In this document: positions 2,493-38,784 of the stretch, piece by piece | Numbering within the stretch: position 1 is the first letter of the stretch | Layout: each line of letters begins with the position of its first letter | Assembly: GCA_016928395.1 (NCBI GenBank) | Contig: JAFGKV010000063.1 | Span: 4,106 to 68,105 of the forward strand | Origin: Candidatus Fermentibacterota bacterium | GTDB lineage: Bacteria; JAFGKV01 | DNA length: 64,000 bases | Direction of reading: 5' to 3' | The notes under the pieces: model-generated | What the model was told of the DNA's origin: nothing | What the model saw: only the letters and a program-made list of their open reading frames with translations | The model's database searches: none | Made by a program: the position numbers and the translations under genes

Positions 2493-3596
2493 ATGTCACA
2501 GATCAAGAAGACCCAGCTGACTTCTGAACATGAGCGGCTGGGCGGTAAGATGGTGGAGTTCGGCGGCTGGTGGATGCCGGTCCGCTTTCGCGGCATCGTA
2601 GAGGAGCATCAGGCGGTACGCTCCGGCGCCGGGCTCTTCGATGTGTCCCACATGGGCGAGATTCTCATCACCGGTCCGGATGCCCTCCGGTTCACAAACA
2701 CGATCGTGACCAACAACGTCGAGAAGCTCGAGCCGGATCAGGCACTGTATACCTGCATGTGCTATCAATCGGGAGGTATCGTGGACGACCTACTCGTCTA
2801 CCGTCTCCCCGAAGGATACCTCCTTGTTGTCAATGCGGCGAACACTGAGAAAGACTATGGATGGATCGTGGAACATGCCGAGGGCGACATCCAGATAGCG
2901 AACGAGAGTGACGACTATATCCAGATCGCCTTGCAGGGTCCCCGGGCAGCTGAGATCCTGGCGCCTCTGACCGATGAGAACCTCGATGCCATCCGTTTCT
3001 ACCACTATGCCAAAGGCGATGTGACGGGCTTGCCCGCCATCATCTCGCGGACGGGATACACCGGCGAAGACGGTTTTGAGGTGTACCTGAAGGGTGGAGA
3101 GGCGGAGGCTGCCCGCGTGTGGCGCGCACTCTTGGAGCAGGGAAAGCCCTTTGGCCTGGTGCCGATCGGCCTGGGTGCCAGGGACACGCTGCGGCTGGAG
3201 ATGGGGTACATGCTGTACGGTAACGACATCACCCAGGACACGACGCCTCTGGAGGCCGGGCTGGGCTGGGTAACCAAGCTCAAGAAGGGCCCGTTCATTG
3301 GCCGTGACGCGCTTCTACGGCAGAAAGAACAGGGCCTTCGAAAGAGTCTGATCGCGTTCACGGTGGAGGGCCGTAGCGCCCCACGCCACGGGTACCCGCT
3401 CCTGCTGGACGGCGAGACCCACGGGGAGGTGACATCGGGTACGTTCTCACCGTCACTGGAACGAGGCATCGGCTTGGGATATCTCTCCACCGAAGCTCAG
3501 GCTCGCGAGGGGATACTCGCTGTGAACATTCGAGGGAAGTCAGTCCCTGCTTCCCGGGTTTCATTGCCTTTCTACAAGCAGGGCTCTCATCTGTAA
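2493..3596 (+). CDS. gcvT: Aminomethyltransferase, glycine cleavage T protein
   Basis: GcvT releases ammonia from the aminomethyl group carried on lipoyl-GcvH and passes the one-carbon unit to tetrahydrofolate. The protein of 367 residues starts MSQIKKTQLTSEHERLGGKM, and shows the family signature MVEFGGWWMPV, the GVFDVSHMGE-type segment (AGLFDVSHMGEI), SRTGYTGEDGFEVY and the C-terminal R-x-L-R-L-E-M-G-Y block. I chose the ATG at 2493 rather than an upstream in-frame start because GGGAGG sits 6 bases before it and homologues begin there. It is the first gene of the gcvT-gcvH-gcvPA-gcvPB run; gcvH follows after 38 bases. Length is normal for the family. Confidence 0.96.
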   Translation: MSQIKKTQLTSEHERLGGKMVEFGGWWMPVRFRGIVEEHQAVRSGAGLFDVSHMGEILITGPDALRFTNTIVTNNVEKLEPDQALYTCMCYQSGGIVDDLLVYRLPEGYLLVVNAANTEKDYGWIVEHAEGDIQIANESDDYIQIALQGPRAAEILAPLTDENLDAIRFYHYAKGDVTGLPAIISRTGYTGEDGFEVYLKGGEAEAARVWRALLEQGKPFGLVPIGLGARDTLRLEMGYMLYGNDITQDTTPLEAGLGWVTKLKKGPFIGRDALLRQKEQGLRKSLIAFTVEGRSAPRHGYPLLLDGETHGEVTSGTFSPSLERGIGLGYLSTEAQAREGILAVNIRGKSVPASRVSLPFYKQGSHL

Positions 3597-3634
3597 ATCA
3601 TGCGTGGCACCAGCGGTGCCATCGAGGAGGAATC

Positions 3635-4021
3635 ATGGACGAAGCAATCCGCTGTACCAGCGAACATGAGTGGGTCCGCGCGGAGGAAGGGTTCGCGGTG
3701 GTGGGCCTGACCGACTACGCGCAAGGCGAGCTCGGCGACATAGTCTATGTCGAGCTTCCGGAGATCGGGGCGCGATTCGAGAAGGGAGAGGTGTTTGGCA
3801 CCATCGAGTCGGTGAAGTCAGTCAGCGATATCTACTCGCCCATTTCTGGCGAGGTGCATGCGGTCAATCACGAGTTGGAGGCCCATCCGGAACTTGTGAA
3901 CCAGGACTGCTATCATGCAGGTTGGATTGTCAAGCTCGACATGTCCGACCCGTCCGAACTGGATGACTTGATGACCGATGCGGAGTATGAAGAGTTCATT
4001 TCGGGAGGCGCTGAGGAGTGA
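3635..4021 (+). CDS. gcvH: Glycine cleavage system H protein
   Basis: GcvH is the lipoylated carrier that shuttles the aminomethyl group between the P, T and L proteins. The 128-residue sequence has the typical start (CTSEHEWVRAEEG) and the lipoyl-lysine motif IESVKSVSD with Lys-61. GAGGAGG precedes the ATG. Its TGA stop overlaps the GTG start of gcvPA by four bases, implying translational coupling. No dihydrolipoamide dehydrogenase gene is in the window, so the L protein must be encoded elsewhere. A lipoyl-transfer enzyme gene at 6862 could supply its cofactor. Confidence 0.96.
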   Translation: MDEAIRCTSEHEWVRAEEGFAVVGLTDYAQGELGDIVYVELPEIGARFEKGEVFGTIESVKSVSDIYSPISGEVHAVNHELEAHPELVNQDCYHAGWIVKLDMSDPSELDDLMTDAEYEEFISGGAEE

Positions 4022-5349
4022 GCCGGCTTCCGCTGACCACGCGCGACCGGGAACTGATGCTCTCCCGGATCGGTGTGGATCGCTTCGACGACTTGCTCCG
4101 TCCCATCCCTGAGACTGCGCGCTTCTCGGGGCTGCTTGACCTTCCGCCTTCCCTGGCGGAGGGCGCGCTGGCCCGGCATGTGAAGGAACTCTCAGAACGG
4201 AACGTGCCTGTGCTCAGCTTCATGGGTGCGGGATCCTACGAGCACTTCCGGCCGGCGGTGGTTGACTATGTCTGCGGGCGCCCCGAGTTCCGCACCGCCT
4301 ATACTCCCTACCAAGCCGAAGTGAGCCAGGGGACCCTCCAAACCATCTATGAGTTTCAGACGGCCATCGTGGAACTCACCGGCATGGAAGTCGCGAATGC
4401 GTCCATGTATGAGGGTGGAAGTGCCGTTGCAGAGGCGATGCTCATGGCCGTATCCGCCACCGGTAGATCCTCGATTCTCATCAGTGAGGGGGTCCACCCG
4501 CTGGTTCGCAGGGTCGTGCATACCTATGCACGACCCAACGGCATCGCGGTGATTCCGGTACCGCTGCACCAGGGCACCACGCCCGACACCGCGGTTCGCG
4601 AACGAGCAGAAGGGGCAGCGGGACTCATCTATCAAGAGCCGAACTTCTTCGGCTGTATCGAGAACCAGCAACGTCTCATAGAGGCGTCCCATGCCGCGGG
4701 TGGCCTGGCCATCGCCAGCGTTGATCCGCTGTCTCTATCCGTTCTTGAGCCGCCCGGCGCTTTGGGTGCCGATATCGCGGCGGGAGAAGGGCAGGCCCTG
4801 GCCGCTCCCGTATCTTTCGGAGGCCCCGGGGTTGGGTTTCTCGCCTGTACTCAGCGACTGATCCGCAAGCTTCCGGGCAGGCTGGTCGGCGCAACGGTAG
4901 ACGGCCAAGGGAGGCGAGGCTTCGTGCTTACACTGCAGGCCCGGGAGCAGCATATCCGACGCCAAAAGGCTACCAGCAATATCTGCACGAACCAGGCTCT
5001 GGTCGCTTTGGGTTTCTTGGTAACGGTCTCGGCCCTGGGCCCCCACGGATTGGCCAACATGGCGAGCCAAGCGACTCAGAAAGCCCATTACTACCAGCAC
5101 GCGCTTCAGAAGCGAGGGTTCCCCCTGGCGTTTGACGCGCCGTTCCTTTGGGAGTTCACGGTGCGCACCGGCATACCCGCCGCCACCTATGTGGAGGGGC
5201 TGCTCTCCCGTGGCGTGCTCCCGGGCCTTGATTTGGGCACAGTGTCTCCTGACCTGGCTGAGCGCCTTCTCGTCTACGTATCGGAAATGCGAACCCGCGA
5301 GGAGCTTGATCGTACCGCCGAGCTGATGGGGGAGGTGAGTCATGGCTGA
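4018..5349 (+). CDS. gcvPA: Glycine dehydrogenase (decarboxylating) subunit 1
   Basis: This is the N-terminal half of the split P protein, as in Thermus and many anaerobes; with GcvPB it forms the PLP enzyme that decarboxylates glycine and loads GcvH. The 443-residue protein shows the family segments [52 protein letters not shown] and [12 protein letters not shown]. It starts with GTG overlapping the gcvH stop and ends overlapping the gcvPB start by 8 bases. There is no catalytic lysine in this half, as expected; that residue is in GcvPB. Confidence 0.95.
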
Positions 5350-6799
5350 GAAGATCATCTACGAACTGGGCTCGCCCGGCCGCCAGTCGGTGGATCTTCC
5401 TCCTCTGGACGTACCCTCCGAGGACGCGGGTGCCATGATCCCTGCGGGTACCCGGCGTGTGAAGCCGCCCATGCTCCCCGAGATCGACGAACTGGAGTTG
5501 ATCCGCCACTTCGTCCGCTTGTCCGTACTGAATCATCATGTAGAGAAGGGGTTCTATCCCCTGGGATCGTGCACCATGAAGGCCAATCCACCGGTGAACG
5601 AGGTCTTGGCGGCCCTCCCCGGCTTTGCCTTGGCTCATCCGTGGTGGCCTGCACGTCTGGCGCAGGGATCATTGCGCCTCATGGCCGAACTGGAGGCAAT
5701 GCTGGCGGAAATCTGTGGCCTCTCCGCCACGACGCTTCAGCCGGCCGCAGGCGCCCATGGCGAACTCACCGGCCTCATGGTGGTACGGGCCTATCATGAG
5801 TCGCACGGCAATCCTCGCAAGCGGGTGATCGTGCCAGACTCGGCCCACGGCACCAACCCGGCCAGCGCATCGCTGGTGGGCTATGAGATCGTGGAGATCA
5901 AGTCTGACGGTGACGGCCTGGTGGACTTGGCCGCCTTGGAGAGGGCGTTGGACGAGGACACCGCCGTGTTCATGCTGACCAACCCGAACACGCTGGGCCT
6001 GTTCGAACGCCGCATCTGCCAGATCCAGCAGATGGTCCATGCGAAGGGCGCCCTGCTCTACATGGACGGCGCCAACATGAACGCCCTCCTGGGCATCGTC
6101 CGCCCGGGTGACACCGGCTTTGACCTGGTGCACCTCAACCTGCACAAGACCTTCTCGACGCCCCACGGAGGCGGAGGACCGGGCGCGGGACCGCTGGTTG
6201 TAGCGGAGAAGTTGGCGCCATTCCTTCCTGTGCCTCGCATCGTTCAGGCAGAGGACGGATCCCTGCGGTGGGACTATGATAGGCCCCAATCAATCGGCAA
6301 GGTCATGACATGGTGGGGCAACTTCGGGGTGCTGGTGCGGGCGTATGCCTACATCCGTTCGCGGGGAGCCCGGGGCCTGGCTCAGGTGAGCGAAGCCGCC
6401 ATACTCAATGCCAACTATCTTCTGGCGTTGGTACAGGATCGTTTCGATCTGCCCTACCCTGGCCCGTGCATGCACGAATTCGTGCTCAGCGGCGACCGGC
6501 AGAAGAAGCGTGGCGTCCGCACACTAGACATGGCGAAACGACTCTTGGACAAGGGCATGCATGCACCAACCATCTACTTCCCGCTGATTGTCAGCGAAGC
6601 CATGATGATCGAGCCGACGGAGACGGAATCCCGGGAGAGCGTCGAGGAGTTCGCGCGCGCGCTCCTCGAGGTAGCCGATGAGGCGGAAGAGAACCCCGAG
6701 TTCGTTCATGCCGCGCCCCACTCGACCCCTGTGGGCCGTTTAGATGAAACCAGGGCAGCCCGCCAGCCTGACCTGGCCTTCAAACGGCCAAAGACTTGA
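5342..6799 (+). CDS. gcvPB: Glycine dehydrogenase (decarboxylating) subunit 2
   Basis: This is the PLP-binding half of the split P protein. The 485 residues include [13 protein letters not shown], the [12 protein letters not shown] stretch, [17 protein letters not shown] and the PLP-lysine motif [16 protein letters not shown] with Lys-269. The start overlaps gcvPA by 8 bases with GGAGGTGAG in front of the ATG. The stop lies 62 bases before the chosen start of the lipoyl-transfer gene, so that gene is likely cotranscribed. Length and motifs are normal. Confidence 0.96.
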
Positions 6800-6861
6800 C
6801 GCAAACGGGGGATGGAAGGCAGGAACACTGCAGGCAGCCGCACCCGCGAGAACGAGGTCGG

Positions 6862-7659
6862 ATGAGCGAGACACGGTCTTCCTCACCTGCTGATCGGGCA
6901 GCTTCATGGCGAGTTATTCTTGATGGCGAGGCGTCACCGGGGTTCAACATGTCCTTGGATCAGGTCATCGCGGAATGTGTCGCCGGCGGCGAAAGCCCCC
7001 CGACCCTGCGGTTTTACGGATGGGATCGACCCGCGGTGTCCTTGGGCTACCACCAGAGTCCGGAGAAAGTATTGGACATGGCGGCCGTGAACGCACATGC
7101 TCTGACGGTGGTGAAGAGACCGACGGGAGGCCGGGCGGTCTTGCATGGAGACGATTTGACCTATTCCGTGGCCTTGCCCGCGAATGGACCGTGGGCTGTC
7201 AGCGTGACCGAGGCGTACCGCATGCTCAGTGAGGCATTACAGCGAGGCTTCAGGCGAGCCGGTGTCGAGGTCACTCTCGCCCGGGGCCATCGTGGAGGAC
7301 TCCGCCCGGGCCCGCTGCCCTGTTTCGCGAGCACCGCGCGCCACGAACTTGTGTGGAACGGCCGCAAGCTAGTGGGCAGCGCGCAGCGACGCCTTCGGGG
7401 GGGGTTGCTTCAGCAGGGGAGCATTCCTCTGGCGAGGGGCACCATCAGACTGGATGAACTGGTTCCTCCCGGCCAGAGAATCGAGGTTGAGGATCGATGG
7501 GCCACGGTGGAGGAGGCCGCCGGTCGCCCCGTGGACCGTCTACACCTGGCCCGCGAATTGGCCCATGGTTTCGGCGAGCAGTTCGGCGTTTCGTTGTGCT
7601 TCGAGTCGCCACGAATCGACGAGACCATTGCTGCCCAAAGGATTACGGCAACTCCATGA
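6862..7659 (+). CDS. Lipoyl/octanoyl-transfer enzyme, LipM/LplA family
   Basis: This is a BPL/LplA/LipB-fold enzyme that attaches octanoate or lipoate to carrier proteins such as GcvH. The 265 residues show KRPTGGRAVLHGDDLTYSVA at about 85-104 (the RRxTGG...H block) and NGRKLVGSAQRR with Lys-169. A cysteine at 154 in the context PCFAS, shortly before the lysine motif, matches the catalytic cysteine position of LipM-type octanoyltransferases as I know that family; that favours LipM over LplA. I chose the ATG at 6862 (GAGGT in front) over an upstream TTG that overlaps the gcvPB stop. Placement directly after the glycine-cleavage genes fits a role in H-protein lipoylation. Confidence 0.85.
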   Translation: MSETRSSSPADRAASWRVILDGEASPGFNMSLDQVIAECVAGGESPPTLRFYGWDRPAVSLGYHQSPEKVLDMAAVNAHALTVVKRPTGGRAVLHGDDLTYSVALPANGPWAVSVTEAYRMLSEALQRGFRRAGVEVTLARGHRGGLRPGPLPCFASTARHELVWNGRKLVGSAQRRLRGGLLQQGSIPLARGTIRLDELVPPGQRIEVEDRWATVEEAAGRPVDRLHLARELAHGFGEQFGVSLCFESPRIDETIAAQRITATP

Positions 7660-8048
7660 ACGGATTCGACATACCCAACGATCCGCAGAGAGCCCCTGAA
7701 GTACCGCTCCTGCTATCACGTCTCGCGAAGGAGATCGTCGATCGCAGCCTCACCGCTCCGGCGATGATGTTCCTGGAGTCAACCAAGCCCTTGAGTTTCC
7801 TGGGAAGCCAGATTATGGTGTTCTTCTCCCCGTTCGTGAAGGCGTTCTGGGATGGCGCAAGCTACGATCAGCTTTCCGCCCTCCTGGAAGACCGGGCGAA
7901 CATCGAGATCCTGCTCCAGGAGATGGAGCGTCTTGAGGCGGAACGCTCGGCGATCCGAAAGGAAGAGAAAGCACGACGCAAGGCGGAGAAAGACCGCGTG
8001 AAGGCTCAGAAGAAGGAGAGACGGTTATGGCCGAAGAACGACAACTGA
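7656..8048 (+). CDS. Unknown 130-aa protein with hydrophobic core and basic coiled tail
   Basis: I do not recognise this family. The start ATG overlaps the stop of the lipoyl-transfer gene (ATGA), and the 3' end overlaps the next gene by 22 bases, so it sits inside the operon and is translated in step with it. Residues about 45-62 (FLGSQIMVFFSPFVKAFW) are hydrophobic and could be membrane-associated or a buried helix. Residues from about 75 on are an acidic then strongly basic helix rich in Glu, Arg and Lys (EKARRKAEKDRVKAQKKERR), likely a coiled coil or a nucleic-acid- or lipid-binding tail. The part before about residue 75 looks like a folded domain. Confidence 0.75.
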   Translation: MNGFDIPNDPQRAPEVPLLLSRLAKEIVDRSLTAPAMMFLESTKPLSFLGSQIMVFFSPFVKAFWDGASYDQLSALLEDRANIEILLQEMERLEAERSAIRKEEKARRKAEKDRVKAQKKERRLWPKNDN

Positions 8049-9859
8049 ACCTCGCGGAGCTGAGGAGCATCCTTGCCACCGATTGTGGCAGCACGACCAC
8101 CAAGGCGATCCTCATCGAGAAGGAAGCTGATGAGTACCGGCTGAAAGTGCGCGGCGAGGCGCCCACCACGGTGGAAAGGCCCGCCGAAGACGTGACGAGG
8201 GGTGTGCTCAATGCCGTGAGCGAGGTGGAGGAGCTCACGAACCGCACCATCCTTGACGGCGAGATCATCATAAAACCCCGCACCGAAACGAAAGGAGTCG
8301 ATATCTATATTTCGACCTCCAGCGCCGGGGGAGGGCTGCAGATGATGGTGGCGGGGGTGGTGAAGAGCATGACCGGGGAAAGCGCCCAGCGTGCCGCGCT
8401 GGGCGCTGGCGCCATCGTGATGGATGTACTCGCATCGAATGACGGCCGCCTGCCCCACCAGCAGATCGAGCGTATCCGCAATCTCAGACCTGACATGATC
8501 CTCCTCTCCGGAGGAATTGACGGAGGGACAACCACCCATGTCGCGGAACTGGCGGAAATCATCTCCGCCGCAGATCCCAAGCCCCGGCTCGGCCACGGCT
8601 ACAAGCTTCCGGTGATCTATGCGGGAAATGCTCAGGCGCGCGACATCGTGCGGGATATTCTGGGCAACAAGGTCGAACTGTTCATCGTCGACAATTTGAG
8701 ACCGGTGTTGGAACGGGAGAATCTCGGCCCGGCCCGCGAGAAGATCCATGAGCTCTTCATGGAGCACGTCATGCAGCAGGCGCCTGGTTATGCCAAGCTC
8801 ATGCAGTGGACCGATGTGCCCATCATGCCGACCCCAGGAGCCGTGGGCCTCATCATCCAGACCATCGCCCGCCAACACGGCATCGATGTCGTCGGAGTCG
8901 ACATCGGCGGCGCCACCACCGATGTGTTCAGTGTGTTCTCGGACACGTTTAACCGCACAGTGAGCGCCAATCTCGGAATGAGCTACTCGGTCTCCAACGT
9001 ATTCGCCGAGACGGGCCTGGACAATGTCATGCGCTGGGTCCCATTCGACATGGATGAACTGGATCTCCGTAACCGCATAAAGAACAAGATGATTAGACCG
9101 ACCACCATCCCGCAGCTCATGGAGGAGTTGATCGTCGAGCAGGCCATCTCCCGGGAGGCGCTGCGGCTGGCGTTCATTCAGCACAAGTCATTTGCCGTGG
9201 GATTGAAAGGCGTCCAGCAGGAGCGGACGATCTCCGACACCTTCGAGCAGAAAGGCTCCGGCGAGACGCTGGTCAACATGATGAGCCTGAAACTCCTGGT
9301 CGGCTCCGGCGGCGTTCTCTCCCATGCCCCTCGACGCAACCAGGCTGCGATGATGCTCGTTGATGCCTTCCTGCCCGAGGGATTCACGCATCTGGCGGTT
9401 GACTCCATCTTCATGATGCCTCAGTTGGGCGTACTGTCAACGGTGCACCCGGATGCCGCGACCCAGGTGTTCGAGCGCGATTGCCTCATCCATTTGGGTA
9501 CCTGCATCGCCCCGGTGGGCCCTGGCAAGCCTGGCAAGACGGCTCTGGAACTCGATATCGAGCTTCCCGGCGGTTCGACTCATGTCGAGATGGAGTATGG
9601 GAAGATGAAGCTGATCCCACTGGGGGTCGGCGAGAAGGCCATGGTGAGGGCCCGGCCCGGCAAGGGGCTGGACCTCGGTGCCGGCAGGGGCGCCGAGATG
9701 AGCGAGGAGGTCGAGGGTGGTGTCGTGGGCATCATTCTGGACACGCGGGGGAGGAATCCTTTCGTACTGCCCGTGGATGCCAAGGAACGGGTGCCGAAGC
9801 TCGTTGAATGGATCGCTGCCCTGGATGCCTATCCGGCGGCTGCGCTGCAGCGGCACTAA
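8027..9859 (+). CDS. MutL/GlmL-like ASKHA ATPase
   Basis: A 610-residue protein resembling MutL/GlmL, the actin/hsp70-fold ATPase encoded with B12-dependent glutamate mutase and related aminomutases and thought to act as a reactivating chaperone. Phosphate-1 loop: LATDCGSTTTKAIL at 17-29. A second ASKHA motif is VVGVDIGGATTDVFSV near residue 290, with DMILLSGGIDGGTTTH between them. GAAGGAGAG precedes the ATG, and the gene overlaps the previous one. No mutase subunit, cobalamin-binding protein (DxHxxG) or B12 gene is visible nearby. The substrate it serves here is therefore unknown. The partner is more likely the next gene, 47 bases downstream. Confidence 0.85.
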   Translation: MAEERQLNLAELRSILATDCGSTTTKAILIEKEADEYRLKVRGEAPTTVERPAEDVTRGVLNAVSEVEELTNRTILDGEIIIKPRTETKGVDIYISTSSAGGGLQMMVAGVVKSMTGESAQRAALGAGAIVMDVLASNDGRLPHQQIERIRNLRPDMILLSGGIDGGTTTHVAELAEIISAADPKPRLGHGYKLPVIYAGNAQARDIVRDILGNKVELFIVDNLRPVLERENLGPAREKIHELFMEHVMQQAPGYAKLMQWTDVPIMPTPGAVGLIIQTIARQHGIDVVGVDIGGATTDVFSVFSDTFNRTVSANLGMSYSVSNVFAETGLDNVMRWVPFDMDELDLRNRIKNKMIRPTTIPQLMEELIVEQAISREALRLAFIQHKSFAVGLKGVQQERTISDTFEQKGSGETLVNMMSLKLLVGSGGVLSHAPRRNQAAMMLVDAFLPEGFTHLAVDSIFMMPQLGVLSTVHPDAATQVFERDCLIHLGTCIAPVGPGKPGKTALELDIELPGGSTHVEMEYGKMKLIPLGVGEKAMVRARPGKGLDLGAGRGAEMSEEVEGGVVGIILDTRGRNPFVLPVDAKERVPKLVEWIAALDAYPAAALQRH

Positions 9860-9906
9860 CGGCATGCACACCCATGGATACACAGTGCATCGATAGGAGG
9901 TGAGTC

Positions 9907-11034
9907 GTGGCTCATGCATATACACCAGGATTGAGGGTTGCCGACCTCACCATCGTCCAGAAGGAGCGCCGGCTGCCGTTACCCGGACAGGTGCTGGTGA
10001 ATGTCGGCGACAGGGTGACTGCGACTCAGGTCGTAGCACGCACCGAGCTTCCGGGGAATGTCGAGAGTGTCAACGTCGCCAATCGTTTGGGCGTCCCCCC
10101 GGAAGATGTGCCCCACTGCATGCTGAAGAAGGAAGGCGACCCCGTCCAGAAGGGCGAAATCATGGCCCAGAGCAAGAGCTTCTTCGGCTTGTTCAAATCA
10201 TCGTGCCAGGCAACGGTCGACGGCACCGTTGAGACAGTGTCCTCCGTAACGGGACAGGTACTCCTCCGAGAGCCCCCCATGCCGGTAGAAGTCCGGGCCT
10301 ATGTAGATGGCGTCGTTACCGAGGTGCTGCCCCGGGAGGGTGTGATCGTCGAGACCCCCGCGACCTTCATCCAAGGAATCTTCGGCATCGGCGCTGAAAC
10401 TCAAGGTGAACTGGTCATGGTAGCCAGTAGCTCGGATGAGGTGCTCGAGGCCGACCGCCTCACCGAGGCGGTACGCGGCAAGGTCGCGGTTGGCGGATCG
10501 CTGGTGACCGCGGCGGCCATCCGCAAGGCCATCGCCGTCGGCGCCAAAGGGATTATCGCCGGAGGCCTTCACGACAAAGACCTGCGGGAGTTTCTGGGAT
10601 ATGATCTCGGCGTCGCTATCACCGGTAACGAGGACAAGGGGATCACCCTGATTGTCACGGAAGGATTCGGCACTATCAGAATGGCAGAAGGGACTTTTGC
10701 ATTGCTCAAGCGATGCGAGGGGATGGAATGCTCGATGAACGGGGCAACGCAAATTCGGGCCGGCGTGATCCGGCCGGAGGTCGTCATTCCCCGACGCGAC
10801 GAGCAGGTCGACGTCGATGGAGACGCCCGGGAGGGAGCCGGCAACATGGTGATCGGGAGCCCTGTCCGGGCTATTCGTGAGCCCTATTTCGGCCGCCTCG
10901 GCACAGTAAGTGCTCTGCCCTCAGAGCTGCAGCGTGTCGAATCCGAGACCATGGTGCGCGTCCTCGAGGTGCAGTTCGATGACGGCACCCGGGCCGTGGT
11001 CCCCCGCGCCAACGTGGAACTCATCGAGAAATAG
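9907..11034 (+). CDS. Unknown 375-aa protein, barrel-sandwich-like repeats plus KOW-like C-terminus
   Basis: No named family recognised. The first 180 residues hold several short beta motifs of barrel-sandwich type: VLVNVGDRVTATQVVAR, then KKEGDPVQKGEIMAQ, then ATVDGTVETVSSVTGQVL and AYVDGVVTEVLPREGV. These resemble biotinyl/lipoyl or RnfC/NqrA-type hammerhead folds but carry no modifiable lysine motif. Residues about 180-280 form an alpha/beta region (GAKGIIAGGLHDKDL). The last 55 residues (PYFGRLGTVSALP ... VVPRANVELIE) look like a KOW/SH3-like domain. It starts with GTG after a strong AGGAGGTGAG. I believe a similar protein accompanies MutL-like genes in other phyla, but I cannot verify that here. 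Confidence 0.8.
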   Translation: MAHAYTPGLRVADLTIVQKERRLPLPGQVLVNVGDRVTATQVVARTELPGNVESVNVANRLGVPPEDVPHCMLKKEGDPVQKGEIMAQSKSFFGLFKSSCQATVDGTVETVSSVTGQVLLREPPMPVEVRAYVDGVVTEVLPREGVIVETPATFIQGIFGIGAETQGELVMVASSSDEVLEADRLTEAVRGKVAVGGSLVTAAAIRKAIAVGAKGIIAGGLHDKDLREFLGYDLGVAITGNEDKGITLIVTEGFGTIRMAEGTFALLKRCEGMECSMNGATQIRAGVIRPEVVIPRRDEQVDVDGDAREGAGNMVIGSPVRAIREPYFGRLGTVSALPSELQRVESETMVRVLEVQFDDGTRAVVPRANVELIEK

Positions 11035-11089: not shown

Positions 11090-12325
11090 ATGAGCCCGAC
11101 GCTCATCTCCAGCCTCTTGGCAGGGTTCTTGGTTGGTGTGGTTCTCGGGCTCATCCTGCTGCGCGTAGGCCCACCGCGCCAGGCCAAAACGAGCCGTGAG
11201 GAAGACGCGGCAGCGTGGGCGTCGGTGCTCAATCAGGCCGTACGAGAGATGAAGACACGCCAGGTCACGGCGGACTCTCAGCGTGAGGATGCAGAGCACC
11301 GGGCAATACACACCGAAATGCTCTACCGGATGATCCTGGACGCGGTACCCAACGGAGTCGTAGCTTTCGACACCTCCGGTGCGGTGGTCACCGCCAATCC
11401 GGTGGCTCGCCGCCTCCTGGGGATAGACAAGACCAATGCGGTGGAGATGCCCCCCACTCTGGCGAGCTATCTCAGATCGGCTTTGAACGGGTCGACTCCT
11501 CCCTACGTGGAAACCGACCTTTTGGTTGGGCATGCCGTCGTGCCTGTCGGCGTCCAGATCCGCCCGCTGTCCGTGAGTACGGCGACACCCGGCGCGGTTA
11601 TGGTAGTCGCTGAACTGGCCGAACTCCGGCGGCTGCAAACCCGTGCCCGGCTCATGGAGGATCTGGCCGATCTGGGGCAGCTCACCGCGGGCATCGCCCA
11701 TGAGTTTCGTAACGCCTCAGGAACCCTTCGGGCATCGGCCCAGTTTCTGGCAGACAAGGTCGACGGAGCGGCCAAGGAGGCGGTACACGATCTTCTTGAA
11801 GAGACAGACAAGCTCGCGCGTGTCACGACCGAGTTGCTTGATTTCGCGAAACCCTGGGACCGAGGCATCGAGTCGGTCGAGTTGGATCCCCTGATTCGTC
11901 AGGTGTCCGGCCAGCTTGGGGCAGCCTTTCCCTCGCACCCGGTGGAACTGCGGCTCACCTGCCCCACACGTTCAGTGATGGGCAAAGGCACACTACTGGC
12001 CCGAGTGATCGATAATCTCATTCGTAACGCCGCCGAAGCCAACCCGCCAGGTGCGCAGATCAGGGTGGAATCATCCTCGACCCGCGACGAAGGCGGCTCA
12101 TGGCTCGTGGTGACGGTTATGGACCGCGGCTGCGGTCTTGCCTGGGGTGATGCGGAGGAGGCCTTCCTCCCCTTTCGAAGCACTAAGCCTGGCGGCACTG
12201 GCATGGGTCTAACTCTGGCGAGGAAGATAGCCCGCCTGCACGGCGGCACGCTGACCCTAACCAATCGTGATGGAGGCGGTGCCGTCGCGACGCTCAGGCT
12301 GCCATTCGGCGACGAAGAGGTATGA
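11090..12325 (+). CDS. PAS-domain sensor histidine kinase, NtrB/PilS type
   Basis: A membrane-anchored two-component kinase of 411 residues. A single N-terminal transmembrane helix lies at about 5-25, followed by a short coiled region. A PAS domain covers about 75-180 (ILDAVPNGVVAFDTSGAVV). The HisKA motif is GIAHEFRNASGTLRASA with phospho-acceptor His-204. The ATPase has the N box (NLIRNAAEA), G1 (DRGCGLAW) and G2 (GGTGMGLTLA). GGAGGG precedes the ATG. It lacks the multiple transmembrane helices of classical PilS. The likely partner is the sigma-54 response regulator at 13007, with a prepilin-like gene between them on the other strand. Confidence 0.92.
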   Translation: MSPTLISSLLAGFLVGVVLGLILLRVGPPRQAKTSREEDAAAWASVLNQAVREMKTRQVTADSQREDAEHRAIHTEMLYRMILDAVPNGVVAFDTSGAVVTANPVARRLLGIDKTNAVEMPPTLASYLRSALNGSTPPYVETDLLVGHAVVPVGVQIRPLSVSTATPGAVMVVAELAELRRLQTRARLMEDLADLGQLTAGIAHEFRNASGTLRASAQFLADKVDGAAKEAVHDLLEETDKLARVTTELLDFAKPWDRGIESVELDPLIRQVSGQLGAAFPSHPVELRLTCPTRSVMGKGTLLARVIDNLIRNAAEANPPGAQIRVESSSTRDEGGSWLVVTVMDRGCGLAWGDAEEAFLPFRSTKPGGTGMGLTLARKIARLHGGTLTLTNRDGGGAVATLRLPFGDEEV

Positions 12326-12521
12326 CATATCACTCGGGCGAGGCCGACGGCATGCACATGCGCCGAGTGTTAAAGCGATACGACAATGGCAACGGCCGAC
12401 GCACCTCTGCAACACGGAAAATCCCAGGGACGGGGCTCGCAGAGAGCGACGCGACGCCCCCCTGCGGCCGCGGGTATCGGGAAGTCACACGGGCGATGGC
12501 CCACGCGTGGCTCAGCAAGGA

Positions 12522-12851
12522 TTAGTGGTCGTGGGCATTCAGGTTGATGATGCAATATCCGTCGAAATCGTAAGGAGCCCCAAACGGGCACGATGGAATG
12601 ACCGGCACGAATTCCGGGGCCAAATCCTGCAACGAAGCGGCCACTTCTCCGTTGCCAGCCAAGTACATGGATGCCGCGCTGTTCAGGGTTGAGATGTTCC
12701 CATGGCACTTGGCCAGCTTGGCAGTATCCGTCACTTCAAGATACCGGGGAAGCAACAGCGCCGTCAGAATCATGATGACGGCGCAGATCACCATCAGTTC
12801 AACCAGTGTGAACCCTTGTTGGCCACCTCTGCAAAAGGGCTGGAACATCAT
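12522..12851 (-). CDS. Prepilin-like protein (type IV pilin / pseudopilin)
   Basis: A 109-residue protein with the class III signal peptide RGGQQG|FTLVELMVI: the prepilin peptidase site lies after Gly-13 and Glu is at position +5 of the mature protein. It is followed by a hydrophobic helix (MVICAVIMILTALLLPRYLEV) and a small C-terminal domain with Cys residues (CHGN ... CPFG ... GYCII). I chose the second of three in-frame starts because GGGAG lies 8 bases before it. It would be a minor or major pilin, or a type II secretion pseudopilin. It lies between a PilS-like kinase and a PilR-like regulator, and a sigma-54-like promoter stands upstream. No other pilus assembly genes are in the window. 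Confidence 0.85.
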   Translation of the reverse strand: MMFQPFCRGGQQGFTLVELMVICAVIMILTALLLPRYLEVTDTAKLAKCHGNISTLNSAASMYLAGNGEVAASLQDLAPEFVPVIPSCPFGAPYDFDGYCIINLNAHDH

Positions 12852-12939
12852 GTGGATCACTCCCATAGGTGAGAGGCACGAGACGACCGGCAGCACATAC
12901 CACGAACTCCGGAGACCTCACTGCGGTCAATGGTCCTCC

Positions 12940-12955
12940 TGCAATTCTCGGACCG
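12940..12955 (-). promoter_or_regulatory. Sigma-54-type (-24/-12) promoter candidate for the prepilin gene
   Basis: Read on the minus strand the site is CGGTCCGAGAATTGCA. It has GG and GC at the invariant 10-nt spacing and the -12 core TTGCA, plus C and G at two further consensus positions; three of the -24 bases differ from TGGCAC. Initiation would give a leader of about 80 nt before the prepilin ATG. The neighbouring activator keeps the GAFTGA loop needed for sigma-54, which supports the reading. Confidence 0.45.
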
Positions 12956-13006
12956 CCTTCTTCGCAATGCCTTTTTCCCTTCGTGCAGCGATTTCGGAGG
13001 CTGGTC

Positions 13007-14413
13007 ATGAGTGATCGGTCGCAGAGTGCCCGGGCAAAAGTACTCCTGGTTGAGGATCGCGAGACCCTGCGAAGATCCTTCGCCCGCCTGCTGACCGAAC
13101 GCTCATACGAGGTCCAGGAAGCGCCCGATCTGGCCCGCGCCCGTGCCGAGTTGGAGAATCATCCCCCCGATGTGGTGCTCACTGATCTCAAGCTCCCCGA
13201 CGGCGAGGGTACCGAACTACTCTCACTGTGCCAGCAACTCCCCAAGCCACCTCCGGTGATTCTCCTTACCGCGTACGGTTCAGTGGAAACCGCGGTGCAG
13301 GCAATGCGGCGGGGCGCATACGACTTTCTCACCAAGCCGGTAGACTCGGAGCACCTTCTGCTCGTGACCCAACGCGCACTGCAGGATTCCGCCCGCCGGT
13401 GGCGCCTGGAGGCCTTGGCTTCGGTAGAAGACGAACCCACCCTTCTCGGCGATAATGCTCCCTTCCGAGAAGTCGTGCATCGCGCGTGCACTGCTGCGGC
13501 GACCGACACCACCGTTCTCCTTCTGGGAGAGAGTGGCACTGGGAAGGAGCTGCTGGCGCGCCTTATTCACCAGCGCAGCACGCGAAAGGATGGTGTGTTT
13601 GTGCCGGTCAACTGCGCGGCTATATCGGCTTCTCTGGCCGAGAGCGCCCTCTTCGGCCATGAACGCGGCGCATTCACCGGAGCCCGTGAACGCCACCGCG
13701 GCTGGTTCGAGCTCGCCCACGGAGGCACGCTCTTCCTCGATGAAATCGGCGACCTTGAGCATGGGCTCCAGGGCAAGTTCCTCCGTGTCTTGGAGGACGG
13801 GATGCTGCAGCGGGTGGGTGGTTCCCAGTGGCTGAAGGTCAATGTCCGCGTCATCGCGGCCAGCAACCGCGACCTCAGCACCGATGTTGCAGCGGGCCGG
13901 TTCCGTAGCGACCTCTACTACCGTCTCGCCGTATTCCCCCTGGTGTTGCCGCCTTTGCGAGAGCGCCTCGATGACATCCCGATCCTCGCGCTTCATCTCC
14001 TGAACCGCCATTCCAAGGCCTTGGGACGAGGACAGCTCTCCCTGAGTGTCTCTGCGCTGGACGCATTGGCGCACTACCATTGGCCCGGGAACATACGGGA
14101 GCTGGCCAATGTCCTGGAAAGAACTGCGATTCTCGCCCGGGAACCGCTAATCACCCCCGAGATGCTGCCGCCTCTGCAGCGGCTTTCCGTCGAGACCGTT
14201 CCCGGGGAGGACCTGAGTCTGCCGCGCCAAGTTGCCGCCGTGGTCGAAAGAGTCGAGCGTGAGGCGATCACCCGCGCCCTGCGGAAGACCTCCGGTCGAA
14301 GAAGTGAGGCGGCGCGCCTGCTGGGAATCACCTATCGGACTTTGCTCAACAAACTCAACTCCTATGACATGGAATCCCCGAAGGGAGCCCCGCATACTCG
14401 TGGAGGAGAATGA
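13007..14413 (+). CDS. Sigma-54-dependent response regulator, NtrC/PilR type
   Basis: A 468-residue enhancer-binding protein. The receiver domain (about 10-125) has the phosphorylation site Asp-60 (VVLTDLKLPDG) and Lys-110. The AAA+ domain has Walker A GESGTGKE at 174-181, the sigma-54 contact loop GAFTGA at 221-226, Walker B TLFLDEIGD and the arginine-finger region. The C-terminus is a Fis-type helix-turn-helix (EAARLLGITYRTLLNKLNSY). The ATG at 13007 is preceded by CGGAGG; longer upstream starts lack support. It is divergent from the prepilin gene, and its stop overlaps the start of the transcarbamylase gene, suggesting that gene is cotranscribed with it. Confidence 0.95.
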   Translation: MSDRSQSARAKVLLVEDRETLRRSFARLLTERSYEVQEAPDLARARAELENHPPDVVLTDLKLPDGEGTELLSLCQQLPKPPPVILLTAYGSVETAVQAMRRGAYDFLTKPVDSEHLLLVTQRALQDSARRWRLEALASVEDEPTLLGDNAPFREVVHRACTAAATDTTVLLLGESGTGKELLARLIHQRSTRKDGVFVPVNCAAISASLAESALFGHERGAFTGARERHRGWFELAHGGTLFLDEIGDLEHGLQGKFLRVLEDGMLQRVGGSQWLKVNVRVIAASNRDLSTDVAAGRFRSDLYYRLAVFPLVLPPLRERLDDIPILALHLLNRHSKALGRGQLSLSVSALDALAHYHWPGNIRELANVLERTAILAREPLITPEMLPPLQRLSVETVPGEDLSLPRQVAAVVERVEREAITRALRKTSGRRSEAARLLGITYRTLLNKLNSYDMESPKGAPHTRGGE

Positions 14414-35182: not shown

Positions 35183-35818
35183 TCAACCGAGAATCGCAGC
35201 CAGGGTAGGACGAACCCAATCGTCGACCAAAAAGGTGAGCCGGCCAACCAACAGCGAGATGCGTGCCATCACGGTGTAGCCGAAGCTCGCGCCGAAACAG
35301 ACCATGATAAACCATATGCCGAGCCGGCTGACAGGCCTGAGTATCCCCGTATGAGGCCGGGAGAAGTAGAAATAGACCAACACCGAAAGCACGCCCACCA
35401 GCACCAGCAGATTCTGCACACTGGCCAGGGAAAGGGGCAGAAGAGGCAGCATGGTATCCTTCACTTGGGGGAGTACATCCCCGTGCAGCCGTTGCATGAG
35501 CTCCACACCGACGAAGTATCCCATGTAGACGGCCAAAGCCCAACGGCCCAGGAACGAGACACGCTGTACATACCGGAGGTAGAGCATGATGCCCAACACG
35601 CCGCCGATGACAAGATACCAGTTCCTGCCGGGATCCGCGGCCAGCTTCTGGAAAAGATTGGGTATGATGGTTCGGTGGAGGACGATGCCGATCTCATATC
35701 CCAGGGAGAGTCCGACGAAGAGACTCTCTGCGAACCGGTAGAGGGGGTTATCCTTGTAGAGGAAGCTGTAGATCGCCAGCGTGAGAAACGCAGCAACCCA
35801 GGCACTAACGAGGTCCAA
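35183..35818 (-). CDS. Cassette protein D: multi-pass membrane protein of unknown function
   Basis: I recognise no named family. The 211 residues contain about six hydrophobic helices (for example AWVAAFLTLAIYSFLY, WYLVIGGVLGIMLYL, LLVLVGVLSVLVYFYF) with a conserved-looking start DNPLYRFAESLFVGLSLGYE. The start is TTG at 35818, chosen because GGGAGGA lies six bases upstream; it overlaps the end of gene C by 14 bases. It belongs to a minus-strand run of four membrane genes downstream of rplI. Confidence 0.75.
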   Translation of the reverse strand: MDLVSAWVAAFLTLAIYSFLYKDNPLYRFAESLFVGLSLGYEIGIVLHRTIIPNLFQKLAADPGRNWYLVIGGVLGIMLYLRYVQRVSFLGRWALAVYMGYFVGVELMQRLHGDVLPQVKDTMLPLLPLSLASVQNLLVLVGVLSVLVYFYFSRPHTGILRPVSRLGIWFIMVCFGASFGYTVMARISLLVGRLTFLVDDWVRPTLAAILG

Positions 35819-36680
35819 GTCTTCCTCCCGCGCGGGTGCGCTCACTTCGCGAGAGCACGTAGAAGACATTACCAAGAAGGATGAACACGATGATGATGAG
35901 GTGAACTATGGACTGCACATCCATGCCCCTCCTGGCAACCCGAGCCCTGTCTCGCAACTCAGGGTAGGCACTGGCAAGGAGCTCCTCGTACTCGGCCGCC
36001 CCCTTCAGCCCACCCAGAAGCCCGATCATCTGGCCGGCCTTCAGATAAGTATAGTACTTGGGCGCGGAGACCGCGGTGGCCCCGACGGCCACCGTCTGCC
36101 CAAACTGGGCATTGACGAGGTTTGCCCAATACTCGCCCAGAATGCCGGTTGCCAGGCTTACGGCCACGCCGATCTGCGGATAGCCTCTCACCTCCTGCAT
36201 GAGAGGAATCTCTTTTAGAGGAATGCCCCGATGATCCCGGGGAAACGCTGCCGAGATATCTTCCGCCATCCTGCGCATCACCGCCTGGGCGCCGTCTTTG
36301 TAGCCCAGGTAGACGAAATCGCGGCCCTCTTCAACGGAGAACTCACCAGTCACTCGATCCAGGCTTCCCTGGGCCATGTTGGGCCCACCCAACGGAAACA
36401 ACGCCAGCACGACCACCCTGACACCACGCGTGAAGCAATGGCGTAGAATCGCATCGGCCATGGGATCTAGCTCAGGAGCCGAGCTGGGGCCGTAGTCGAA
36501 TGAGAGCATGAGAACATCCTGCGGGCCAAACGACTCAACCCGCTGGAACAGGGCTTCCACGGCGGGGGTGGTCAGGATTGGCAGGCCCATGGGGATGAGG
36601 ACCGGGAGCAAGGCGCCCACGGCAACCAGGAGATAGACCCAACGCCGGTCAATACCGCCTACCTGTTGTGCATCCGACAT
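35805..36680 (-). CDS. Cassette protein C: membrane-anchored protein of unknown function
   Basis: A 291-residue protein with one transmembrane helix near the N-terminus (about 15-35), a soluble alpha/beta domain, and one helix near the C-terminus (about 258-278, VHLIIIVFILLGNVFYVL). The soluble part begins DVLMLSFDYGPSSAPELDPM, followed by a Rossmann-like segment (RVVVLALFPLGGPNM). No family is assigned. It starts with ATG one base after the stop of gene B, with GGGAGA ahead, and its 3' end overlaps gene D. Confidence 0.75.
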   Translation of the reverse strand: MSDAQQVGGIDRRWVYLLVAVGALLPVLIPMGLPILTTPAVEALFQRVESFGPQDVLMLSFDYGPSSAPELDPMADAILRHCFTRGVRVVVLALFPLGGPNMAQGSLDRVTGEFSVEEGRDFVYLGYKDGAQAVMRRMAEDISAAFPRDHRGIPLKEIPLMQEVRGYPQIGVAVSLATGILGEYWANLVNAQFGQTVAVGATAVSAPKYYTYLKAGQMIGLLGGLKGAAEYEELLASAYPELRDRARVARRGMDVQSIVHLIIIVFILLGNVFYVLSRSERTRAGGRLGPR

Positions 36681-36681
36681 C

Positions 36682-37320
36682 TTACTCTCCCGCCCCACCC
36701 ATATATGGGCGCTCGATGCCGAGAATGATCCTGATGGCCATGGATGCAGCTCCCAAGGCCGCACCGATGAGGATGCCCCGCTGCGCGGCAAGGTTGGGGA
36801 CATTCATGATCCACTCGGTCAGTGCGGCGCTGGGCGGGAGCACGAACTTTCCGATGGGCACCCGGCCCAGCATGACGATGACAGCCGAGATCATCAGGAT
36901 TGCAGCCTCGAGGTTCTTGACCCGGAAGGCCCGGAAGGCCGCCGAGGCAATCATGAAGGCGAGGAGGCTGAACATCGTGGCCTGCAAAGGAGTGAAGACG
37001 GTGTCGAAGAGCCAGTTGAAACCGACGGCCCTGCCCTGGGCCGATACAAACGGCTCCACAATGCCTAAAGAAGCCATGACCGCGAATGACGCGACACTCA
37101 CGATGGAGTTACGCCACCCGATGCTGCGCCGTCCAATCTTCTTGGAATGGTGCTGCAAAAAGCTGACGACGCCCAACGGCAAGGCGAACGCGGTCACGAT
37201 CATGAGGAGTTCATCCAGCTTCTCGTTGAGCCCCACCACCACTGGAGCGCTAACGAAGAAGGCGACGACGACGAAGGTGCCGGTGAGAAACGCGAGTAGA
37301 ACCGGTATTTGCCGCTTCAA
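36682..37320 (-). CDS. Cassette protein B: multi-pass membrane protein of unknown function
   Basis: The 212 residues have about six hydrophobic helices (IPVLLAFLTGTFVVVAFFV, LLMIVTAFALPLGVVSFL, and others). A basic loop HHSKKIGRRSIGWRNS lies between helices 2 and 3. No family is assigned. The start is TTG at 37320, preceded by AGGAG that overlaps the gene A stop codon region, a tight coupling. Confidence 0.75.
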   Translation of the reverse strand: MKRQIPVLLAFLTGTFVVVAFFVSAPVVVGLNEKLDELLMIVTAFALPLGVVSFLQHHSKKIGRRSIGWRNSIVSVASFAVMASLGIVEPFVSAQGRAVGFNWLFDTVFTPLQATMFSLLAFMIASAAFRAFRVKNLEAAILMISAVIVMLGRVPIGKFVLPPSAALTEWIMNVPNLAAQRGILIGAALGAASMAIRIILGIERPYMGGAGE

Positions 37321-37324
37321 GGGT

Positions 37325-38335
37325 TCACTCCTGGGTGAAGAAGTCGGCGAACTCGCCGATTCCGAGAGATGACAAGACCATCCCCACCACGATGAGGACG
37401 ATCAGCGCCGCCTTGACGAGATCCTGACCTTTGATAGAGCCAAGGATCAGCGGTTCCCGCGATAGGTACGCGCTGGCAGCGTACAGCTCTTCTCCGATGA
37501 GCGTGTAGTCACACGCCACCACGAAAAACGGGAGCTGCGCCAGCTCCGCGGTGCCGGCTACCTGGATGGCCCCTGCCGCATTGCCGGCCTCCGCCATAAT
37601 CAACGATTCGGCGTAGAATGAACCGATGAGGAAGTTGGTGGCAGGCTTTTCCCTGGTCATGAGCCCCTGAATCGCGGCCGTATAGGCGAACTGGTCATAC
37701 GTTACATAGTTGACCATGTCTTCCTGGAAATAGTCAGGCCGGCCGGCCTTCATGTACGCTTCCTTCACGACCTCACGCGCCGTGGCCAGGACAAGGGGAT
37801 CCTTGTTCGGCACCTCCAGCTGCGTACCATAGGCGGCTGTTCGTTCTGCAACATACCCAAGGATCGACATGGAGGCCACAGTCTGGATATTGTCCACAGA
37901 CATGATCCCCGGAATGTAGAGCACCTTGCGGCCCATCTCGGTAGCGCGGCCCACGGCCTCATCAACAGCGTCTAAACCAGCAATCTTCCGGATGAAGAGC
38001 GGCGCTCCCTTCTTGGCCAGACCAATGTACGCCAGTATCGCACCAGCAAAGAAGGTGAAGAGTAGCAATGCGTTCAGCCGCTCCTCTCGGAAAAACCTGG
38101 AGGGTGTAGCTGTGGTCTCCATGCCGCTCAGGGTGACCAAGGCTATGGCGGAGTCTGCCGAGGCGCCGGCCAGATCCGACATGCAGGGTGTCGCCGACAC
38201 GCACAGCATCAGCAGGGCCCCGCCGAACAGAACACTTGCCGCCCGCGCCGCCCGATGGACGGCAGAACATCGCCGCGACAACCACGGCACGAAGACCCTG
38301 GCTTTATCCCACCACCCAACGGTCATCGAGCCCAC
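37325..38335 (-). CDS. Cassette protein A: membrane protein resembling DUF6754
   Basis: The first of four linked membrane genes. Hydrophobic helices lie near residues 20-45, 80-100 and at the C-terminus (ALIVLIVVGMVLSSLGIG). The soluble core contains RKIAGLDAVDEAVGRATEMG, VLYIPGIMSVDNIQTVASMS and LPFFVVACDYTLIGEELYAA. These blocks match what I recall of DUF6754 proteins from uncultured phyla, whose function is unknown; I cannot confirm the name without a search. GTG at 38335 has GAAGGAG ahead; an ATG at 38326 is the alternative. It begins 6 bases after the rplI stop. Confidence 0.75.
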   Translation of the reverse strand: MGSMTVGWWDKARVFVPWLSRRCSAVHRAARAASVLFGGALLMLCVSATPCMSDLAGASADSAIALVTLSGMETTATPSRFFREERLNALLLFTFFAGAILAYIGLAKKGAPLFIRKIAGLDAVDEAVGRATEMGRKVLYIPGIMSVDNIQTVASMSILGYVAERTAAYGTQLEVPNKDPLVLATAREVVKEAYMKAGRPDYFQEDMVNYVTYDQFAYTAAIQGLMTREKPATNFLIGSFYAESLIMAEAGNAAGAIQVAGTAELAQLPFFVVACDYTLIGEELYAASAYLSREPLILGSIKGQDLVKAALIVLIVVGMVLSSLGIGEFADFFTQE

Positions 38336-38340
38336 ACCGT

Positions 38341-38784
38341 CTACTCCTTCACGACCCACAATTTGATCCGGGTAGTAACATCAGCGTGAAGCCTCAGTTC
38401 AACAGCGAAGATGCCCAAGGTATTGATGGGATCATCGAGGACGATCTTCTTCTTGTCAATATCGAATCCCTTTTCCTTGAGAAGGCCGGCAATGTCCGCG
38501 GTAGTCACCCGGCCAAAAATCCTATCCTCTTCGCCGACTTTGACTCGGGCGGTCAAGGACACCCGCCGCAACTGATTGGCGAGGTGTTGTGCCTCTCGAC
38601 GTGAGCGGCTCTCGGCCATCTGGGCCTGCTTGTCGCGCTCCATAAGCTGGTTCCGCGCGGCATCGCTGGCTGGAAGCCCCGTGCCGCGGGGAATCAGGAA
38701 GTTGCGGGCGTATCCATCGGCGACCTTGACCACATCGCCGCGTTTGCCCAGCGTAGGCATATCCTGCATCAGAATAAGGTCCAT
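38341..38784 (-). CDS. rplI: 50S ribosomal protein L9
   Basis: A 147-residue protein with the L9 signature LGKRGDVVKVADGYARNFLIP near the N-terminus, a long central helix and the C-terminal domain. The ATG at 38784 has AGAGGAGAGAGAGG ahead; the much longer upstream frame is not coding. It follows ssb by 28 bases. In most bacteria rpsR lies between ssb and rplI; there is no room for it here. Confidence 0.95.
   Translation of the reverse strand: MDLILMQDMPTLGKRGDVVKVADGYARNFLIPRGTGLPASDAARNQLMERDKQAQMAESRSRREAQHLANQLRRVSLTARVKVGEEDRIFGRVTTADIAGLLKEKGFDIDKKKIVLDDPINTLGIFAVELRLHADVTTRIKLWVVKE

Follow-up and report, generated by a model that had tools for sequence, protein, structure and literature searches.

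A MutL-type ATPase, its partner p375 and a DUF6754 membrane module as a candidate envelope system of several bacterial phyla

Genes at the locus

The window is a stretch of 64,000 nucleotides from a Candidatus Fermentibacterota bacterium (GCA_016928395.1, contig JAFGKV010000063.1), and its start falls inside uvrA, of which a part is present. The plus strand then carries gcvT, gcvH, gcvPA, gcvPB and a gene for an LplA-type lipoate ligase (2493..7659, with the ligase at 6862-7659 and the gcvT start set from the conserved alignment), which are treated here as context lying outside the system. They are followed on the same strand by an ORF coding for a protein of ~130 aa (p130, 7656..8048), by a MutL/GlmL-superfamily ASKHA ATPase with a C-terminal extension of ~120 aa (MutL-610, 8027..9859) and by p375 (9907..11034), a putative adaptor that is modelled with barrel-sandwich hybrid, swivelling beta/beta/alpha and KOW domains. 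Neighbouring genes are joined by overlaps of 4 and 22 bp and one 47-bp gap, and the order described in the first-pass annotation (gcvT-H-PA-PB, ligase, 130-aa, 610-aa and 375-aa proteins) is present in the sequence with these joints. p130 has no Pfam family, and contains a conserved hydrophobic or amphipathic core (FLESxKPLxFLGSQ) and a Lys-rich coiled tail. Directly 3' of p375 lie a histidine kinase and an NtrC-type regulator (11090-14413), a pair that is kept within the phylum, yet is no general neighbour of p375 elsewhere.

From uvrA to the NtrC-type regulator, the block has the same gene order in the two further genomes of the phylum that were examined, with identities of ~65-92% for the gcv proteins, 91 and 84% for MutL-610 and 77-85% for p375. 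In these two relatives MutL-610 ranks with the best conserved proteins of the block, only GcvH being comparable. Because p130, MutL-610 and p375 are conserved in these two genomes, they are considered to be real genes.

A second group of genes is found on the minus strand (35183-38359), just 3' of rplI, at 24 kb from p375 and on the opposite strand to it. It is headed by a DUF6754 protein (37325..38359; PF20539, E 8e-116), for which a signal or transmembrane (TM) segment, a TM segment, a cytoplasmic Rossmann-like domain and a C-terminal TM segment are predicted. The others are C3 (36682..37320), polytopic with ~6 TM segments, C4 (35805..36680, the start being likely at 36680), with a probable extracytoplasmic domain between two TM segments, and C5 (35183..35875), polytopic with at least 3 TM segments. 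C3 shares 47% identity with a family, named C3 here, whose genes elsewhere come after DUF6754 in loci where DUF6754 lies downstream of p375, and C4 (by alignment) and C5 are 45% and 46% identical to their respective families.

The DUF6754 model has a pLDDT of 75, and its domain is placed on the cytoplasmic side by the TM profile, a hydropathy estimate. Its fold search gave generic Rossmann-like matches to many families, which indicate no biochemical function, and searches by sequence for solved relatives returned none for C4 and Fn3 domains only for DUF6754; most DUF6754 proteins of the surveyed loci include an Fn3 domain. Representatives of C3, C4 and C5 were scanned against Pfam and matched no family, the one exception being a planctomycete C3 (L139:4594-5853) with a fused FHA domain, which hints at a phospho-signalling input to the membrane complex. 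A common origin of DUF6754 and C4, both of TM-domain-TM layout, found no support in a profile comparison (probability of 0.8%). This genome contains six DUF6754 genes and module copies beyond that of the window. A divergent DUF6754 module, present in this genome and in G002 (L124:124-7326 and L126:5059-13516), adjoins a 1300-aa protein that looks membrane-like by sequence.

MutL-610 and its partner p375

The MutL-like nature of the 610-aa protein, first proposed from the letters alone, is borne out by its match to PF13941 (E 6e-128), which covers the full 450 positions of the domain. The nucleotide motifs DCGSTTTK, DIGGATTDVF and GSGGVLSH are invariant in an alignment of 33 MutL-610 sequences, whose mean column identity across phyla is 72%. 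The protein is probably a cytoplasmic ASKHA ATPase, and we infer that it hydrolyses ATP; a sequence search for solved relatives found none. The curated NCBIfam models score it below their cut-offs in all three cases (GlmL, 229 against 475 bits; Or-4, 219 against 600; glmL_fam, 176 against 204), and the planctomycete orthologue is likewise below all three. In a tree, four GlmL-type proteins lie across a 100/100 branch from MutL-610 and its fused relatives, the GlmL branches being long. Gene neighbourhoods were surveyed by clustering homology-supported ORFs in 83 loci, with ORFs ranked by homology, and the true GlmLs that turned up there (L136, L138) adjoin GlmE or GlmS, a B12-binding protein. 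Judged by sequence, MutL-610 belongs to the PF13941 family but is not a true GlmL.

The first-pass annotation saw no mutase beside these genes, and this extends to the whole genome for two enzymes: methylaspartate mutase E (PF06368) and methylmalonyl-CoA mutase (PF01642) are absent from all three genomes of the phylum, their positive controls being detected. No aminomutase was found elsewhere in the genome either, where the search with PF09043 (Lys/Orn aminomutase), run without a positive control, gave no match in the phylum genomes nor in any control genome. B12-binding domains were matched at 32 places in this genome, mostly in ORFs of 450-600 aa that are presumably radical-SAM enzymes judging by their size, and no mutase large subunit was found. 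A "GlmL/MutL-family" annotation alone would falsely imply a B12 mutase in metabolic reconstructions.

The AF2 model of p375 has a pLDDT of 87, and an alignment of 56 sequences gives a mean column identity of 65%. Its N-terminal domain is beta-rich in the model, and weak sequence matches to RnfC_N (21.9 bits) and Biotin_lipoyl (21.5 bits), both under cut-off, suggest a barrel-sandwich hybrid. Residues ~130-297 match swivelling-type folds (RraA, the PEP-utilising mobile domain, AcnX-swivel-like) at Z 8-9, a level near the common-fold background, and these matches carry no sequence relation. In the fold search, residues ~312-375 correspond to a KOW domain resembling NusG/Spt5; a sequence search for solved relatives of p375 returned chance matches only. 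The hairpin lysine, K90, is not invariant (50 K, 4 R, 1 Q and 1 V among the 56 sequences), and p375 was consequently rejected as a lipoyl or biotinyl carrier.

Scanning genomes for p375 yielded more than 560 similar places, and the best 80 of these belong to Zixibacteria, WOR-3, Eisenbacteria, Coatesbacteria, Fermentibacterales, Hydrothermota, Calditrichota, CSSED10-310, Wallbacteria, Planctomycetes and one genome labelled Gemmatimonadetes. MutL and p375 are neighbours in 54 of the 83 surveyed loci. The stand-alone p375 is single-copy in this genome, which also encodes two paralogues of ~1000 aa in which MutL is fused to a p375-like part (C331, L004:492-3527; C20, L005:6826-9663), and such fusions, which have no KOW domain, occur in the phylum relatives and in one planctomycete too. 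This genome's two fusion genes have no DUF6754 neighbours in the stretches examined. Adjacency, fusion and co-occurrence uphold the pairing of the 610-aa and 375-aa proteins that had been suspected, and p375 is, as far as sequence data can tell, an obligate partner of MutL-610.

Several variations of the locus were observed. In several Zixibacteria (L023, L028, L039, L056, L087), p130 and MutL are separated by an NYN-domain protein. L041, L043, L051, L062, L066 and others have, between MutL and p375, a protein of ~260 aa whose N-terminus is signal-like and which matches no Pfam family, and in these ExbB/ExbD/TonB/Pal-like (Tol-Pal-type) genes are often found 3' of p375. In WOR-3 and related loci (L022, L024, L025, L030, L038, L047, L059, L063, L099), p375 comes after a membrane protein that resembles TMEM260 and contains TPR repeats, and not after MutL.

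Linkage of the pair to the DUF6754 module

The consensus order in the 83 loci is p130, MutL-610, p375 and then repeats of the four genes DUF6754-C3-C4-C5, with p130 directly 5' of MutL in 21 of the loci and in that of a complete genome (L140). All 27 p375-bearing genomes tested, which represent about ten phyla, contain DUF6754; the 14 control genomes all lack it. Physical proximity is less frequent: DUF6754 lies at most two genes downstream of p375 in only 16 of the 83 loci, and the module lies away from p375 in many loci of Zixibacteria and WOR-3.

A second, independent sample, in which the genes are patchily distributed, was composed of 246 genomes from the phylum to which G028 (labelled Planctomycetota) belongs, and there DUF6754 is present in 61, p375 in 58 and MutL-610 in 60. 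MutL accompanies p375 in 57 of the 58 p375-bearing genomes, and all three genes are found in 54 genomes and none of them in 181. The table of DUF6754 against p375 (55 genomes with both, 6 with DUF6754 only, 3 with p375 only and 182 with neither) gives a Fisher p of 4e-44, a value inflated by shared ancestry. In this sample, p375 lies directly 3' of MutL on the same strand at 48 places, with gaps mostly under 100 bp, DUF6754 follows p375 directly in 36 matches, and the three are consecutive in 31 genomes. One complete planctomycete genome (G209, locus L140) contains p130-MutL-p375-DUF6754-C3-C4-C5 in a single run, and L139 has an operon from MutL to C5.

Conserved gene order in such distant phyla does not follow from genome ancestry alone, and it is well supported that MutL-610, p375, p130 and DUF6754-C3-C4-C5 form one system. 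The neighbours of MutL and p375 are kept far outside the genome in which they were noticed, and tabulation of their co-occurrence and order links the two across phyla with the DUF6754 module as recurrent partner; a passing guess of the first-pass annotation, that of a membrane-linked system, is where this evidence leads.

Proposed mechanism, alternatives and related systems

We propose that MutL-610, p375 and p130 would constitute the cytoplasmic part, and DUF6754-C3-C4-C5 the membrane part, of an undescribed envelope system. MutL-610 would hydrolyse ATP and p375 would be its obligate adaptor, docking on it by means of the barrel-sandwich and swivelling domains, with p130 probably tethering the pair, which may act on the cytoplasmic face of the complex, at the Rossmann-like domain of DUF6754. 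The resulting ATP-dependent conformational cycle would assemble, gate or reset the membrane complex, with a logic comparable to that of PilM-type membrane actins or dehydratase reactivases, and one ATPase pair may serve several paralogous membrane modules. The presence of one pair per genome beside several modules suggests that the motor is shared and that the membrane parts are interchangeable. We give about an even chance to the proposal that the ATPase-adaptor pair assembles, gates or resets the DUF6754 complex, its contact with the complex, its ATP hydrolysis and its output all being part of what is inferred. More tentatively, and a little short of an even balance, this could be a new class of ATP-driven inner-membrane machine, in which a MutL-type motor and its adaptor drive several interchangeable DUF6754 complexes, and which would belong to the conserved core of envelope biology in Zixibacteria, WOR-3, Eisenbacteria, Calditrichota, Planctomycetes and further phyla that have been little studied.

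Among the alternatives, MutL-610 and p375 could be a soluble chaperone or reactivase of some enzyme, the DUF6754 module being merely a frequent neighbour. The ASKHA family and the swivelling-type domain of p375 would fit such a role by analogy, as would the many loci where the pair lies apart from DUF6754; but DUF6754 is what tracks the pair most consistently, in co-occurrence and in order, and no candidate client enzyme is common to the loci, making this reading unlikely. Less probable still is a function with ribosomes or transcription, for instance in co-translational assembly of membrane proteins, mediated by the NusG/Spt5-like C-terminal KOW domain of p375. Several loci, and the DUF6754 module of the window, do adjoin rpsF-rpsR-rplI or rplI, although KOW/Tudor folds are common, also in non-ribosomal proteins, and the domain is missing from the fused paralogues.

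A role in lipoylation, on the lipoyl-H-protein or in the glycine cleavage system is very improbable. The gcv-lplA-p130-MutL-p375 order of the window recurs in both phylum relatives, gcv genes are also found near Eisenbacteria-like loci (L035, L044, L045, L058, L064, L073, L089, L090), and p375 may contain a lipoyl-like barrel. However, only 11 of the 83 loci have gcv genes nearby, none of them from the Planctomycetes or from those Zixibacteria whose neighbouring genes are of rplI or Tol-Pal type, and no gcv gene is present in the complete planctomycete operon of L140. The linkage is clade-local and incidental, and was rejected as a general functional clue; as p375 also has no invariant attachment lysine, what the first-pass annotation drew from the linkage to lipoylation and glycine metabolism is not supported. 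The reading of MutL-610 as a true GlmL or Or-4, which would reactivate a B12-dependent aminomutase and to which its MutL domain would point, is mostly refuted and the least probable, having been rejected on the curated cut-offs, the absence of PF06368 and PF01642 from the three phylum genomes and the tree, and is opposed by the GlmE or GlmS neighbours of true GlmLs.

The proposal that the pair drives the DUF6754 complex concerns a gene set that is present in genomes of more than ten phyla without a recorded function, and the fact that the ATPase is ~70% identical across them points to a core function. With its seven genes in one operon, the complete planctomycete genome opens the question to direct testing. 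A literature search restricted to open-licence papers found none on DUF6754, PF20539 or PF13941. The MutL family is known, and the MutL-610 subfamily in its DUF6754 setting is undescribed in that literature. The head protein of the module is a clear member of DUF6754, a family without described function.

The GlmL/MutL and Or-4 mutase accessory proteins (PF13941, NF040745, NF040744) have the ASKHA/MutL domain and the ATP motifs in common with MutL-610, which is ~70% identical among phyla but only ~27-36% identical to GlmL and, unlike them, has a C-terminal extension, an obligate p375 and no mutase. The nearest soluble rival is a chaperone similar to dehydratase reactivases. The glycerol dehydratase reactivase joins an ATPase domain with a swivelling domain (PMC7674605). 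In the reactivases of glycerol and diol dehydratases the ASKHA ATPase works with the swivelling domain, as is proposed for MutL-610 and p375, whereas here the swivelling-type domain is predicted in a separate protein, together with barrel-sandwich and KOW domains, and no dehydratase-like beta subunit is seen. PilM, GspL and FtsA-type proteins are membrane-associated ASKHA proteins with a cytoplasmic actin fold, encoded in operons with inner-membrane components. MutL-610 shares with them this layout of a cytoplasmic actin-fold protein and inner-membrane genes in one operon, but it lacks sequence membership in their families and pilin, PilN/O or FtsZ partners, its membrane proteins being DUF6754, C3, C4 and C5.
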